Source of the DNA: Microbacterium ulmi | GTDB taxonomy: Bacteria > Actinomycetota > Actinomycetes > Actinomycetales > Microbacteriaceae | Direction: 5' to 3' | Length of the DNA stretch: 64,000 nt | Assembly (NCBI RefSeq): GCF_011759705.1 | Contig: NZ_JAAOZF010000001.1 | Coordinates: 2,528,551-2,592,550 of the forward strand | In this document: positions 7,814-12,073 of the stretch, in pieces | Layout of the letters: every line of letters starts with the position of its first letter | Position numbering within the stretch: position 1 is the first letter of the stretch | Notes under the pieces: model-generated | Database searches by the model: none | Told to the model about the DNA's origin: nothing | Seen by the model: the letters and a program-made list of their open reading frames with translations, nothing else | Translations under genes and position numbers: made by a program

Positions 7814-9075
7814 CCGGACGGGATGCCGCGGACCCCGGCGCCCCCGAGGGGCGCGGCGGGTCCGCGGCATCCGACCTCCTGCTCGCCCGGGTCGTCCGCG
7901 AGGAGTCCGGGCGGATCGTCGCGGCGCTCACCTCGTCGCTCGGGAGCCTCGACATCGCGGAGGAGGCCGTCGCCGAAGCCGTCGAGGAGGCGCTGCGGGA
8001 GTGGCGCGCACGCGGCATCCCGCCCAAGCCCGGCGCGTGGCTCACGCAGGCGGCCAAGCACAACGCGCTCGATCGCCTGCGGCGCGAGCAGCGGTACCGG
8101 GCCAAGCTCGCGCTCCTCGCCGAGCCGGAGGCGGCGGAGCCGGGCACGGCGGATGCCGGGGCCGACGAACGGCTTCCGCTGCTGTTCGGATGCTGCCACC
8201 CTGCGCTCTCGCCCGACGCGCAGCTCGCCTTGACGCTGCGCGCCGTGTGCGGCCTCACGACGGCACAGATCGCGCGCGCGACGCTGACGTCGGAGGCGAC
8301 CGTCGCTCAGAGGATCGTGCGGGCCAAGCGCAAGATCGGGTCGGCCGGCATCCCCATCCGCGTGCCCGAGGGCGAGGCCCGGCGCGGGCGGCTCGACCTC
8401 GTGCTGACCGTCGTGTCCCTCATGTACAGCGAGGCGCATCTGGTCGCAGGGCGGGATGCGTCGGCCGACCGGGATCTCGCCGACGACGCCGTCTGGCTCG
8501 CCCGCGTCGTCGCGGCCGGACTTGCGCGGGAGGCGGAGGCGCACGGTCTGCTCGCGCTCCTGCTCTTCCACCGCGCCCGTGAGGGTGCGCGCGCCGTCGA
8601 CGGCGAGCTCGTGCTGCTCGGCGACCAGGATCGGTCGCGGTGGGATGCCGCACTCCTCGCGGATGCGCGCCGCGCCCTCCAGCGGGCGGCGACGCTGCGC
8701 AGGCCGGGGCGATGGCAGCTGCACGCCGCGATCGCCGCGTGCCACGCGGACGCCGCGACCTCGGCGGACACGGACTGGCTGCAGGTGCTGACGCTCTACG
8801 ACATGCTGCTCGCGTACGACCGGTCGCCCGTCGTCCGGCTCAATCGAGCCGTGGCGCTGTCGCGCGTCGACGGACCGGAGCCCGCGCTCGCCGAGCTCGA
8901 CGCGGTCGGCGAGGCGCTGGGCGGGTTCCATCTGTGGCACGCCGTCCGCGCGCACGTCCTCCGCGAGCTCGGACGCGACGACGAGGCGCTCGCGGCCGAC
9001 CTGCGCGCGCTCGAGCTGACGGCGAACGACGCAGAGCGCCGGCTCATCGCGCGACGAGTGAGCCCGGCCGGGTGA
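7810..9075 (+). CDS. ECF RNA polymerase sigma factor, ECF42 type
   Basis: Alternative sigma factor of 421 residues, about twice the size of a minimal ECF factor. Sigma region 2 lies near 25-95 (SLDIAEEAVAEAVEEALREW) and region 4 near 130-185 (AVCGLTTAQIARATLTSEATVAQRIVRAKRKIG). The remaining half is the helical TPR-like extension (about 200-415) typical of ECF42. Members of this group pair with DGPF proteins, as here. It starts at a GTG whose TG belongs to the DGPF stop codon. No anti-sigma gene is adjacent; in ECF42 the C-terminal extension is thought to regulate activity. Confidence 0.93.
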   Translation: MTGRDAADPGAPEGRGGSAASDLLLARVVREESGRIVAALTSSLGSLDIAEEAVAEAVEEALREWRARGIPPKPGAWLTQAAKHNALDRLRREQRYRAKLALLAEPEAAEPGTADAGADERLPLLFGCCHPALSPDAQLALTLRAVCGLTTAQIARATLTSEATVAQRIVRAKRKIGSAGIPIRVPEGEARRGRLDLVLTVVSLMYSEAHLVAGRDASADRDLADDAVWLARVVAAGLAREAEAHGLLALLLFHRAREGARAVDGELVLLGDQDRSRWDAALLADARRALQRAATLRRPGRWQLHAAIAACHADAATSADTDWLQVLTLYDMLLAYDRSPVVRLNRAVALSRVDGPEPALAELDAVGEALGGFHLWHAVRAHVLRELGRDDEALAADLRALELTANDAERRLIARRVSPAG

Positions 9076-9207
9076 GACGGGCGCGCCTGCGCGCCGGACG
9101 CGCTGCGCGGCCACGAGCGCGGTCCGCGCGGGGCGACGCACGATGCCCCCGCCGGCCCAGCCGCGGGGCGCGATCTGCACCAGGGGAAGAGGACCGCGGG
9201 CGCCGCG

Positions 9208-11127
9208 CTACGCGCCCACAGGCGTCATCGCATGCGCGACGAGCCGCTCGATCGTCGTCATGCCGTCTCGCGACAGGATCGACTCGAGGTGTCCCTGCAC
9301 CGACGCGTACCCCGGTCCGCGCAGCGCGTACACGTCGCCCTGCTCGTCGGCCGCGACCTCGGCGTCCCCGACGCGCGTCGTCCCGGCAGGCACGCGCGCC
9401 GTGAACGTGTTGTAGAAGCCGATGGATGCCGGCACCCCGAACACGTCCACGGTCTTCTGCAGCCCCTGGTGCGGCTGGGCGAGCGGAGCGAGCTCGATCC
9501 CGAGCGAGTCGGCGAGGATCTGGTGGCTGAGGCACACCGCGAGCAGCGGACGGCCCGACGCGCGGCGGCGCGCGACGACGTCCCGCATGCGACGCATGCG
9601 GGCGCTCGCGGGGTCGCGCGGGTCGCCCGGTCCCGGGCCCGACACGACGAGCTCCGCGGCGTCGAGCTGCTCGTCCGTGACGGCGTCCCACGGCGCGATC
9701 ACGACCTCCAGGCCCAGGTGGCGCAGCTGGTGCGCCAGCATCGTCGTGAAGCGGTCCTCGGCGTCGACCACGAGCGCGGAGCGCCCCGCGAACGGGCCGC
9801 CGTCGTCGGCGGCATCCTGCGGGTTGAGCCAGAACGAGGCGAGCCGGGCGTTCCGCGACTGCAGCAGCGTCGCGATGACGGGGTCGTCGGCGAGCAGGGC
9901 GGGCTGCGCAGCGGGGGCGTCCTCGTCGTCGACGGGGGTCCGATCCCTCGGGACGGCGCCGATCGCGCCGAGCACCCCGGCGGCCTTGCCGTGCGTCTCG
10001 CTCACCTCGCCGTACGGGTCGGAGTGCCGCACGAGCGTCGCCCCGACCGGCACTCGCAGGCGCCCGCCTTCGAGATACGCCGTGCGGATGAGGATGGGCG
10101 CGTCGAGGTCGTGCGTCGACTCGCCGTCGGGCACGGCATCCGTCCGCGGCGTGAACAGCGCGGCGACGCCCGAGTAGTACCCTCGCGGCGAGCGCTCGTG
10201 GCGCGTGATGACGGTGCAGGCGTTCTGCATGGGGGAGCCGGTGACGGTGGGCGCGAACATCGTCTCGCGCAGGATCTCGCGCGGGTCGAGGCGGCTGCGC
10301 CCGCGCAGAACGTACTCCGTGTGCGTGAGGCGCGACATCTCCTTCAGGTGCGGACCCGTGATGCGCCCGCCGTCGGAGCAGACGGCGCTCATCATCTTGA
10401 GCTCCTCGTCGACGACCATGAACAGCTCCTCGGTCTCCTTCGTCGACTCGAGGAACTCGGTGAGCGCGTCTGCGGTCGACCCGCCCGCCGGGTGGCGGAA
10501 GGTTCCCGAGATCGGGTTCATCGTGACGACGCCGTCGCGCGCGCTCACGTGCGCCTCGGGGCTCGCGCCGACCGCGAGGTGTCCGGGCGTCGACACGAGG
10601 AACGTCCAGTAGGCGCCGCGCTCGTGCTCGAGGAGTGCCCGGAACCACGTCAGGGCGGCGGTCACGGCATCCGTGTCGATGCGCGCGGTGAAGTCGCGGC
10701 GGATGACGAAGTTCGCCCCTTCGCCCCGCCCGATCTCGTCGGCGATGACGCGCCGCACGATGGCGGCGTAGTCCTCGTCGGGGATGTCGAAGCCCGCGTC
10801 CCGCAGCGGCACCGCGTCCGCAGGGAGCTCCGCCACGACGGCGTCGCGGGGGAGCGCGACGTGCGAGCCGACGACGAGGCATCGCAGGGGTGCGCCGTCG
10901 TCGTGGCACGCGAAGCCGCGCTCGCGGACCTGGCGGAAAGGGACGAGCGCGAGCACTTCGCGGGGCGTGCCCGCGGCATCCGTCAGTGGGATCTCGCCCA
11001 GCAGGTCGACGTCGACGACCTCTCCCGTGAGGAGCTCGACGCTCTCGCCGTCGCGTGCGAGGAGGGCGAAGGGAGCGCCGTCGGAGACGAGGGCGGACAG
11101 CAGGGCGGCGGGACCGTCGTCGGTCAT
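9208..11127 (-). CDS. Anthranilate/ADIC synthase family, fused TrpEG/PhzE type
   Basis: Chorismate-using aminotransferring synthase, 639 residues, with both subunits in one chain. The N-terminal chorismate-binding domain (about 100-380) has ISGTFRHPA, KETEELFMVVDEELKMM and VTGSPMQNA. The C-terminal glutamine amidotransferase (about 440-630) has nucleophile Cys in LAVCLSHQ and the His-Glu pair in VQGHLESI, where the usual text is VQFHPES. The chorismate motifs look closer to PhzE than to classical TrpE, yet a tryptophan attenuator stands directly upstream, so tryptophan supply is the likelier job. GGAAGG precedes the ATG at 11127. No phenazine genes are near. Confidence 0.88.
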   Translation of the reverse strand: MTDDGPAALLSALVSDGAPFALLARDGESVELLTGEVVDVDLLGEIPLTDAAGTPREVLALVPFRQVRERGFACHDDGAPLRCLVVGSHVALPRDAVVAELPADAVPLRDAGFDIPDEDYAAIVRRVIADEIGRGEGANFVIRRDFTARIDTDAVTAALTWFRALLEHERGAYWTFLVSTPGHLAVGASPEAHVSARDGVVTMNPISGTFRHPAGGSTADALTEFLESTKETEELFMVVDEELKMMSAVCSDGGRITGPHLKEMSRLTHTEYVLRGRSRLDPREILRETMFAPTVTGSPMQNACTVITRHERSPRGYYSGVAALFTPRTDAVPDGESTHDLDAPILIRTAYLEGGRLRVPVGATLVRHSDPYGEVSETHGKAAGVLGAIGAVPRDRTPVDDEDAPAAQPALLADDPVIATLLQSRNARLASFWLNPQDAADDGGPFAGRSALVVDAEDRFTTMLAHQLRHLGLEVVIAPWDAVTDEQLDAAELVVSGPGPGDPRDPASARMRRMRDVVARRRASGRPLLAVCLSHQILADSLGIELAPLAQPHQGLQKTVDVFGVPASIGFYNTFTARVPAGTTRVGDAEVAADEQGDVYALRGPGYASVQGHLESILSRDGMTTIERLVAHAMTPVGA

Positions 11128-11165
11128 CGGGAGCCTTCCGTGTGGGCGGGCGGTCGCCAGAGACG

Positions 11166-11191
11166 AGAAAAGACCGCCCGGGGGGCGGTCT
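11166..11191 (-). terminator. Attenuator terminator of the trp leader
   Basis: On the minus strand AGACCGCCC, loop CCC, then GGGCGGTCT form a 9-base stem that runs into TTTTCTC, an intrinsic terminator. It lies between the leader peptide and the synthase gene. A competing hairpin, CCGCCT/AGGCGG across the leader stop codon (about 11214-11228), can free or trap the CCGCC arm, as in classical trp attenuation. Confidence 0.85.
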
Positions 11192-11218
11192 GTGGGTCGT
11201 GGGACGCGAGCACACCGC

Positions 11219-11254
11219 CTAGGAGGCGGGCCACCAGGTGAGGTTCGCGTGCAT
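11219..11254 (-). CDS. trp leader peptide MHANLTWWPAS
   Basis: An 11-codon frame, MHANLTWWPAS then TAG, with two adjacent tryptophan codons at positions 7-8. It is followed within 30 bases by the terminator at 11166-11191 and then the TrpEG-type gene. Ribosome stalling at the Trp codons when charged tRNA-Trp is scarce would prevent the terminator from forming. No Shine-Dalgarno is present; a -10-like GATAGT ends 8 bases before the ATG, so the leader is probably translated from a leaderless mRNA, as in several other actinobacterial trp leaders. It starts 13 bases after the stop of the upstream SDR gene. Confidence 0.88.
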   Translation of the reverse strand: MHANLTWWPAS

Positions 11255-11262
11255 GCGCCGAA

Positions 11263-11268
11263 ACTATC
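11263..11268 (-). promoter_or_regulatory. -10 element of the trp leader promoter
   Basis: GATAGT (minus strand) matches TATAAT at four of six positions and overlaps the SDR stop codon. With the usual 6-9 base distance, transcription would begin at or next to the leader ATG. No good -35 is visible. Confidence 0.5.
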
Positions 11269-12073
11269 ACACGAAGCGCGACAGGGCGTTCGCCGTCCAG
11301 TCCATGAGGGCGTCGCCGCGTTCGCGATCGAGGGCCTCGGCGCTCGGGACGACGAGGCGACCGTCGTCGAAGTACTCGCCGCCGTCCGCGTGCGCGTCGA
11401 GCGCGGCCAGCACGTTGCGGGCACCGTGCTCGACAGTGGTCCCGATCGGCCCGAACATGGCGTCCAGAAGCCGCGTGTTGACGACGCCGGGGCTGAGGCT
11501 GACGGGTGTCGCCGTGCGCCCCCCATGGCGCGCGAGCCAGAGCGTGTACATGATGATCGCGAGCTTGGAGCGGGCATAGGCGCGGACGGGCGTGTAGCCG
11601 TGCTCCAGTTCGATGTCGTGGAGGTCGAGGGTCGTCATCGTGTGCGTCGCGGACGCGAGGTTGACGATCCTGGCACCGTCCGTGAGCGACGACCGCAGCC
11701 GCTCCGTGAGCAGGACGGCAGCGAGATAGTCGATCTGCAGCGTGCGCTCATGGCCGTCGCCGGTGACCTGTCGAGCAGGGCTCCCCGGGACGGCCGCGTT
11801 GTTGACGAGGACGGCGATGGGGCCGCCCGCCGCGGTGGCGATCGCGGAGGCCGTTTCGGCGACTGTCTCGAGGCGGGAGAAGTCGCCGGGCACGTAGACG
11901 ATCTCGGCCCGCCCGCCGGACGAGATCCGCTCGATCGCGGCGGCCGCCGCCGAGCGGCCTTCGACGCCGTGCACGACGAGACGAGTCGTCCGCGCGGCCA
12001 GCCGACGTGCCGTCTCGAGGCCGATCCCGCTCGTCGAGCCGGTGAGCACCATCACCCCGTCCGACGGCGACAT
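11267..12073 (-). CDS. SDR family NAD(P)-dependent oxidoreductase
   Basis: Short-chain dehydrogenase/reductase of 268 residues. It carries the nucleotide-binding TGSTSGIG near the N-terminus, NNAA mid-chain, and the catalytic Tyr-Lys pair in YARSK, preceded by a serine-containing stretch (NLASATHTM). The sequence resembles retinol-dehydrogenase-like SDRs, with substrate unknown. The start at 12073 is fixed by AGGAGG seven bases upstream; the open frame continues to 12730 only as a shadow. It precedes the attenuated synthase gene on the same strand, but the trp leader has its own promoter signal. Confidence 0.93.
   Translation of the reverse strand: MSPSDGVMVLTGSTSGIGLETARRLAARTTRLVVHGVEGRSAAAAAIERISSGGRAEIVYVPGDFSRLETVAETASAIATAAGGPIAVLVNNAAVPGSPARQVTGDGHERTLQIDYLAAVLLTERLRSSLTDGARIVNLASATHTMTTLDLHDIELEHGYTPVRAYARSKLAIIMYTLWLARHGGRTATPVSLSPGVVNTRLLDAMFGPIGTTVEHGARNVLAALDAHADGGEYFDDGRLVVPSAEALDRERGDALMDWTANALSRFV

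Follow-up and report, generated by a model that had tools for sequence, protein, structure and literature searches.

The window, i.e., the whole 64-kb stretch of DNA analysed here, carries on its minus strand a gene for a fused TrpE-TrpG synthase of the PhzE type (9208..11127, 639 aa), which is preceded by a short leader region with the parts of a tryptophan attenuator. Read on the minus strand, to which the positions of its parts refer, the region runs TGTGA-TAGTTT-CGGCGC, ATG CAC GCG AAC CTC ACC TGG TGG CCC GCC TCC TAG GCGGT, and continues 3' of GCGGT with a spacer, the sequence AGACCGCCC-CCC-GGGCGGTCT TTTCTCGTCT, the motif GGAAGG and the synthase ATG at 11127. The extended -10 element TGTGA-TAGTTT occupies 11261..11271, with the hexamer TAGTTT at 11266-11261. 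The hexamer directly follows the stop of an upstream short-chain-dehydrogenase ORF (Pfam PF00106) and is separated by 6 nt from the ATG of the leader peptide ORF, which is predicted to be leaderless and encodes MHANLTWWPAS in 11 codons (11219..11254; ATG at 11254, stop codon TAG at 11221-11219). The tandem Trp codons 7 and 8 (TGGTGG, 11231..11236) are the putative sensor. Region 1, CCGCCT (11224..11229), lies inside the stretch that a ribosome stalled at these codons would cover, and is complementary to AGGCGG (11220-11215), the main part of region 2 (AGGCGGT, 11214..11220), which overlaps the stop codon and can pair with either region 1 or region 3. An outer helix is apparent in the genus alignment, its 5' arm ACGCGA falling in codons 2-4 (11245..11250) and its 3' arm TCGCGT after region 2 (11204..11209). 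Region 3 is the terminator 5' arm AGACCGCCC (11183..11191), for which antiterminator pairing with region 2 is possible; region 4, defined by sequence and covariation, comprises the 3' arm GGGCGGTCT (11179-11171) and the U-rich tail (11161..11179 together). The terminator hairpin thus spans 11191-11171, with a stem of 9 bp and the tail TTTCTCGTCT, 5 of whose first 9 nt are T, and is the sole terminator-like match in 10900-11600 (shuffles gave a mean of 0.0, sd 0.2). The Shine-Dalgarno-like GGAAGG 5' of the structural gene is located at 11134..11139. An extra copy of the terminator 5' arm (GACCGCCC) is present at 11155-11148, directly 5' of this Shine-Dalgarno sequence, and 16 of 60 genus loci have ACCGCC 3' of the terminator, where shuffling predicts 2.8; we did not adopt this copy as a fifth segment of the attenuator, its helix exceeding shuffles in just 6 of the 60 loci.

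An earlier sequence-only reading had described the tandem-Trp peptide MHANLTWWPAS, the CCGCCT/AGGCGG hairpin and a 9-base terminator with a U-rich tail, all of which are confirmed by direct reading of the sequence. Its further statement that these parts form a complete attenuator is supported by comparison, as a leader with in-frame TGGTGG is present in all 57 assessable Microbacterium genomes (the contig of genome G022 begins 115 nt upstream) and in four further genomes of the genus from a class-wide search. Since leaders were recognised by in-frame TGGTGG, the invariance of the Trp codons in the alignment is true by construction, and it is their presence in every assessable genome that constitutes the result. 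Some genus leaders start with GTG or have GGCGGU without its last U. The synthase gene itself was found in 58 of 59 genus genomes, in a few of them cut by contig ends, and was absent from one draft (G043). Among the best 80 named loci, where the closest relatives of the synthase are those of Microbacterium sp. Root166 (83%) and M. yannicii (81%), the leader precedes 69, and 2 of the other 11 are cut by contig ends.

Across the 64 kb of the window, neither strand has a second mini-ORF of up to 30 codons with tandem Trp codons, and a search of 25 other loci (659,048 bases over both strands) gave none that has TAnnnT 6-8 nt upstream. A single match to TGGTGG-N3-12-TAGGCGG exists in the 3.51-Mb genome; this short pattern is by itself not rare, its reversed control having two matches. 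The fold of 11155-11268 has a z-score of -2.33, with 3 of 200 shuffles equally stable. At gathering thresholds Rfam gave no match anywhere in the window; at a relaxed threshold the best match is Trp_leader (RF00513), which covers 11164-11242 over the full length of the model; its 26.4 bits (E 0.0023) fall short of the gathering score, 41. The possibility that the leader is a chance mini-ORF was rejected.

The predicted promoter of the leader has a fixed spacing. From the end of TAnnnT to the start codon, the distance is 6 nt in 89, 7 nt in 85 and 8 nt in 3 of 178 unique leaders from all families, and only 2 occurrences fall at the remaining offsets from 0 to 29. The choice of start codons had favoured this spacing, and the count was therefore redone on the nearest ATG without regard to the promoter; in the 168 leaders so treated, TAnnnT occurs 154 times at 6-8 nt and 14 times elsewhere. 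When 61 unique genus promoters are aligned on TAnnnT, so that TA and the last T equal 1.0 by construction, the TGTG 5' of the hexamer proves to be conserved (T 0.90, G 0.85, T 0.95, G 0.95), and no conservation is seen at -35. A -10-like hexamer 8 nt from the ATG, proposed earlier, has to be replaced by the conserved TAGTTT 6 nt from it. The fixed spacing of the -10 element implies that RNA polymerase would start at the leader ATG or within a base or two of it, and a transcript that begins at the ATG would be translated from its bare 5' end. The window leader has its -10 element placed for such a start and has no Shine-Dalgarno sequence. It is conceivable that transcripts begin upstream and that the leader uses ordinary initiation: the same-strand dehydrogenase ORF ends 12 nt 5' of the leader ATG, which makes readthrough possible, and a scan of 10900-11600 gave no sigma-70 consensus promoter. 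We consider this very unlikely, because 177 of the 178 leaders keep TAnnnT at 6-8 nt from the start codon, SD-like 4-mers precede the start in only 7 of the 178, and the homologue in Streptomyces lividans is described as leaderless in the accessible part of a report on it (PMC8079986). An upstream promoter with an SD-led leader was accordingly rejected, and the prediction that the leader is leaderless, made earlier, is strongly supported.

In the mechanism that we propose, scarcity of tryptophan would make the ribosome stall at codons 7-8, where it would cover region 1; region 2 (GGCGGU) would then pair with the newly made region 3 (ACCGCC), the terminator would be pre-empted and the gene would be read. 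When tryptophan is plentiful, the ribosome would proceed to the stop codon and cover region 2, regions 3 and 4 would form the terminator, and transcription would end. If the leader is not translated, the 1:2 hairpin, lengthened by the outer helix, should favour termination. The 1:2, 2:3 and 3:4 helices are mutually exclusive, their overlapping arms being both legible in the sequence and conserved. The antiterminator GGCGGU:ACCGCC is paired in 98.1% of the cells of the alignment of 60 unique genus leaders (slid controls, 30-78%), a value that speaks of conservation and not of covariation because the arms are nearly invariant in the genus. The terminator, paired in 98.8% of the cells of the genus leaders, does covary, with 3 pairs showing double changes and 0 of 500 shuffles as high. 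The outer helix is paired in 78.8% of the cells. Its double-change cells number 25, as opposed to a shuffle value of 14.2 (2 of 500 shuffles as high); the numbers of its double-changed pairs (3) and of its pair types are not above shuffles (310 and 136 of 500), all these shuffles ignoring the relatedness of the leaders. Taken one at a time, only 33 of the 60 genus leaders place region 2 at or above 95% of composition shuffles, and 14 of the 60 do so for the outer helix, the whole region being GC-rich.

Folding computations agree with the proposed switch in part. With an assumed footprint of a stalled ribosome, and before the terminator 3' arm is made, the antiterminator forms (-15.7 kcal/mol); with an assumed footprint at the stop codon, the terminator alone remains. 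The free RNA up to the terminator 5' arm has the antiterminator, and not the 1:2 hairpin, as its minimum-energy fold. The minimum-energy fold of the complete RNA contains the terminator under either ribosome mask, that of the stalled ribosome included, and antitermination must therefore be kinetic, i.e., depend on the order of synthesis. Classical attenuators depend on this order, too. Of the 60 genus leaders, 50 have region 2 at the stop codon with at least 6 bp, as do all 16 leaders of one family (f26, Jiangella-like by its leader) but only 3 of 12 from the other members of the window's own family; the terminator arm finds its longest complement inside the leader ORF in 15 of 16 Streptomyces-like leaders.

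By its sequence, the hairpin 5' of the structural gene is a predicted intrinsic terminator. U-tails are weak in some relatives, only 122 of 171 hairpins being followed by at least 4 T in 9 nt (the hairpin finder failed on loci L068 and L193), which could be taken to mean that the hairpin is no intrinsic terminator and that the leader controls downstream translation or works via Rho. This appears extremely unlikely for the window, whose 9-bp hairpin has a tail with 5 T among its first 9 nt, and where the stem ends 43 nt from the synthase start codon with GGAAGG outside the hairpin.

The synthase combines a chorismate-binding domain (PF00425) with a glutamine amidotransferase domain (PF00117) in the fused architecture of PhzE-type enzymes. 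The solved PhzE structure 3r74 in PDB matches residues 20-634 with 501 bits, the next match reaching 74 bits, while the synthase scores far below every TrpE cut-off listed by NCBIfam and does not qualify as a canonical TrpE. The earlier statement that it looks more like PhzE than TrpE holds in this sense of family, and does not extend to its closer relationships, since it groups with attenuated trp-type enzymes and apart from isochorismatase-linked ones (see below). The claim that the fused enzyme supplies tryptophan is supported by comparison, by the lack of another TrpE in the genome and by a hisI-trpC slot without trpE. As proteins with PF00425, the genome encodes besides the synthase PabB (over the TIGR00553 cut-off), an isochorismate synthase (over that of TIGR00543) and a second, partial copy of the latter. 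None reaches the TrpE cut-off of TIGR00564, the best being PabB with 286.7 bits; most TrpE-bearing genomes of the family score 460-540 bits with this model, and 5 of 14 control genomes exceed its cut-off. None of the 59 genus genomes reaches the cut-off of NF010086, the highest score being 268.6 bits for the PabB of the window's genome; the 14 controls all stay below it as well, so that the absence of TrpE is judged from relative scores, TIGR00564 and the empty slot. The two isochorismate synthase copies (L007:5017-6324 and 9000-10348; C1 ~640,000-645,000 of the window's genome) lie about 4 kb apart and have a common end sequence, the second being split between frames; the pair may reflect a duplication or an assembly effect.

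The slot itself is defined by gene order. All 6 relatives examined have hisF, hisI, trpE and trpC in this order; in 5 of them trpE and trpC are separated by a gene resembling the Trp-associated membrane gene. In the window's genome the order is hisF, hisI, the Trp-associated membrane gene (PF09534), a small DUF6704 gene, trpC and a PLP-dependent gene in the position of trpB, with trpD elsewhere. Here hisI and the membrane gene touch, which means that trpE is missing from the hisI-trpC slot.

Within the family, to which we take Leifsonia xyli to belong together with Microbacterium, a PhzE-type enzyme (at least 462 bits) is present in 14 of 120 genomes, the window's genome and one congener included, and TrpE in 108 (partial draft matches being counted as present). 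Seven genomes have both, 7 the PhzE-type enzyme only, 101 TrpE only and 5 neither (p = 3.4e-5 by Fisher's test, which ignores relatedness), and on the gene tree of the 14 PhzE-type rows the presence of TrpE needs at least 4 changes. Besides the window's, there are 13 such loci in the family, 12 of which have the leader, 7 in TrpE-bearing genomes and 5 in genomes without TrpE; the enzyme and the attenuator therefore co-occur regardless of TrpE. A divergent PhzE-like enzyme without a leader was seen in a 1.4-Mb genome (locus L072 of G085), where TrpE was also not found. Neither TrpE nor a PhzE-type enzyme was found in G073, G078, G131, G158 and the draft G119; it is possible that these are Trp auxotrophs, that they contain a further replacement or, for G119, that sequence is missing.

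A wider view was obtained from the class search, in which the enzyme was detected at E <= 1e-80 in 109 of 296 genomes and the upstream DNA was compared for 77 hand-chosen loci. Eight Streptomyces-like genomes have two copies of the enzyme. In the six examined (L144-L149, L156-L159, L163 and L164), one copy has a tandem-Trp leader and the other does not, and the copies without the leader have isochorismatase nearby in five cases and a class-II DAHP synthase in the sixth. These loci make up a natural paired set for comparing putative anthranilate and ADIC synthases. Over 200 loci, isochorismatase matches in the flank were recorded for none of the 164 with a leader, 35 of which belong to the genus, as compared with 19 of the 36 without one, two of these 36 being cut at the leader, the flanks extending from 0.6 to 3 kb upstream and from none to 3 kb downstream, and being for many loci 600 nt upstream only. 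A tree of 130 rows gathers the 19 rows that are either linked to isochorismatase or references, among them B. lata PhzE, into one group (SH-aLRT 95) from which leader-bearing rows are absent; it places the window enzyme outside this group, with Trp-attenuated, Streptomyces-like enzymes. All trees come from quick searches and are supported by likelihood tests only, and long branches were flagged in the larger one. When the tree is rooted by TrpE, PabB and MenF, the attenuated rows and 11 of 12 ADIC rows form separate adjacent groups and one ADIC row, L189, is unresolved at the base; the outgroup branches are longer than 2.7, which makes the root unsure.

These comparisons bear on the possibility that the window enzyme is a true PhzE, i.e., an ADIC synthase for a secondary metabolite, and that the attenuator only tunes the use of chorismate. 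Its near full-length likeness to the solved PhzE and its scores far under all listed TrpE cut-offs would be expected in that case. We find it highly unlikely nevertheless: none of the leader-bearing loci has an isochorismatase match in the flank covered, the ADIC group contains no leader-bearing row, the gene is present in nearly every genus genome searched, and the genome has no other TrpE. A true PhzE in a phenazine cluster was rejected, as the window synthase has no isochorismatase (PhzD) neighbour in the flank covered and falls outside the ADIC group on the tree. The attenuator, the lack of TrpE and the phylogeny instead suggest that the fused enzyme is an anthranilate synthase. We are confident that the locus is a classical ribosome-mediated attenuator, which would sense charged tRNA-Trp and control, from its own promoter, a fused anthranilate synthase that is very probably the only one of the organism and appears to have replaced canonical TrpE.

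The two labelled sets can also be compared residue by residue. Leu274 and Pro344 of the window enzyme separate 159 leader-bearing proteins (one of them, L172, being a doubtful leader call without a -10 element) from 20 ADIC-labelled proteins with no exception; the latter have Ile at 274 in 20 of 20 and Ala (11), Ser (8) or Val (1) at 344. PhzE 3r74, which has the fused architecture and near full-length similarity in common with the window enzyme, has Ile and Ala at these two positions, and in its tree group, devoid of leader-bearing rows, all members but the reference have an isochorismatase neighbour. Among 16 proteins with neither a leader nor an isochorismatase match, a set that includes the merely contig-cut L203, 15 have Leu274 and 14 have Pro344, and the exceptions, L187 and L159, adjoin the ADIC group on the tree. 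Position 553 is a weak candidate, Asn occurring also in 5 of these 16 rows. As the ADIC rows are a single group, the separating positions may be mere clade markers and are to be regarded as candidates only. PhzE-like enzymes with Leu274 and Pro344 and with no tandem-Trp leader in the upstream stretch searched were observed in Serinicoccus and Ornithinimicrobium (L257, L258, L259, L264) and in family f33 (L167, L169-L171, L192, L195); these may be under other control, or their leaders may have been missed. A broader proposal, which we put forward tentatively and think rather unlikely to hold in full, is that a cassette of attenuator and PhzE-type enzyme took over from TrpE the role of sole anthranilate synthase in all of Microbacterium and, in separate events, in a few other lineages of the family, that the attenuator labels anthranilate as against ADIC synthases, and that a few positions, Leu274 and Pro344 first, decide pyruvate elimination.

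The switch is of a known kind, exemplified by trpL1-trpE of S. lividans and trpL-trpE(G) of Sinorhizobium meliloti. The accessible part of the S. lividans report describes a leaderless Trp leader (MFAHSTRNWWWTAHPAAH), hairpins, a U-rich stretch and a monocistronic trpE (PMC8079986). The window attenuator is likewise a leaderless Trp leader with hairpins and a U-rich stretch; it has 11 codons with two Trp codons, whereas trpL1, according to the same part of that report, has 18 codons with three. In Streptomyces-like genomes, MFAHSTQNWWWTAHPAAH and similar leaders stand before homologues of the window enzyme, and this match of leaders suggests that SLIV_27120 is of the fused type. A trp attenuator of S. 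venezuelae was reportedly described by Lin et al. in 1998. Sinorhizobium meliloti is an alphaproteobacterium, unlike Microbacterium, and its enzyme is presumably of the TrpE-clade3 type, a model with which the window protein scores 127 bits (cut-off 739). Its trpL-trpE(G) has, in the accessible sections of the publication, a 14-aa Trp leader whose ATG is the 5' end of the RNA, and is controlled by attenuation (PMC7298713), with which the window locus shares a leader predicted to be leaderless, its place before a fused synthase and the proposed attenuation.

For Corynebacterium and Streptomyces, the available text of Seliverstov et al. (2005, PMC1262725) describes Trp attenuators with double or triple UGG codons, a GC-rich terminator and an antiterminator that shares an arm with it. 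The window attenuator has tandem UGG, a GC-rich terminator and an arm-sharing antiterminator in common with these, and differs in the pairing triple, which in that text is gGCC-rGCy-GGCC and in Microbacterium GGCGGU-ACCGCC-GGCGGU. Leifsonia xyli is among the genomes covered there, attenuators of the Trp operon being named in that text for Corynebacterium and Streptomyces only, and its main text does not mention Microbacterium (PMC1262725). The literature that we searched contained no paper joining tryptophan, leader peptide, attenuation and Microbacterium. A 2015 paper, cited in PMC4833913, is said to treat Trp attenuators in Actinobacteria and may list some of these leaders.

In this contribution, a function is assigned to a gene that lies below the NCBIfam TrpE cut-offs, and the first step of tryptophan synthesis is filled in a genus that otherwise seems to be without it. 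According to the accessible part of a 2018 paper, sequences give no hint as to why anthranilate synthase proceeds and PhzE stops at ADIC (PMC5958127). Sorting by attenuator or isochorismatase divides the homologues into two labelled sets and yields a few candidate residues for this anthranilate-versus-ADIC question. Less familiar than the switch itself are its use as a label that parts anthranilate from ADIC synthases and the displacement of TrpE, whose role seems to have passed, across the whole genus, to a distant relative under attenuator control.
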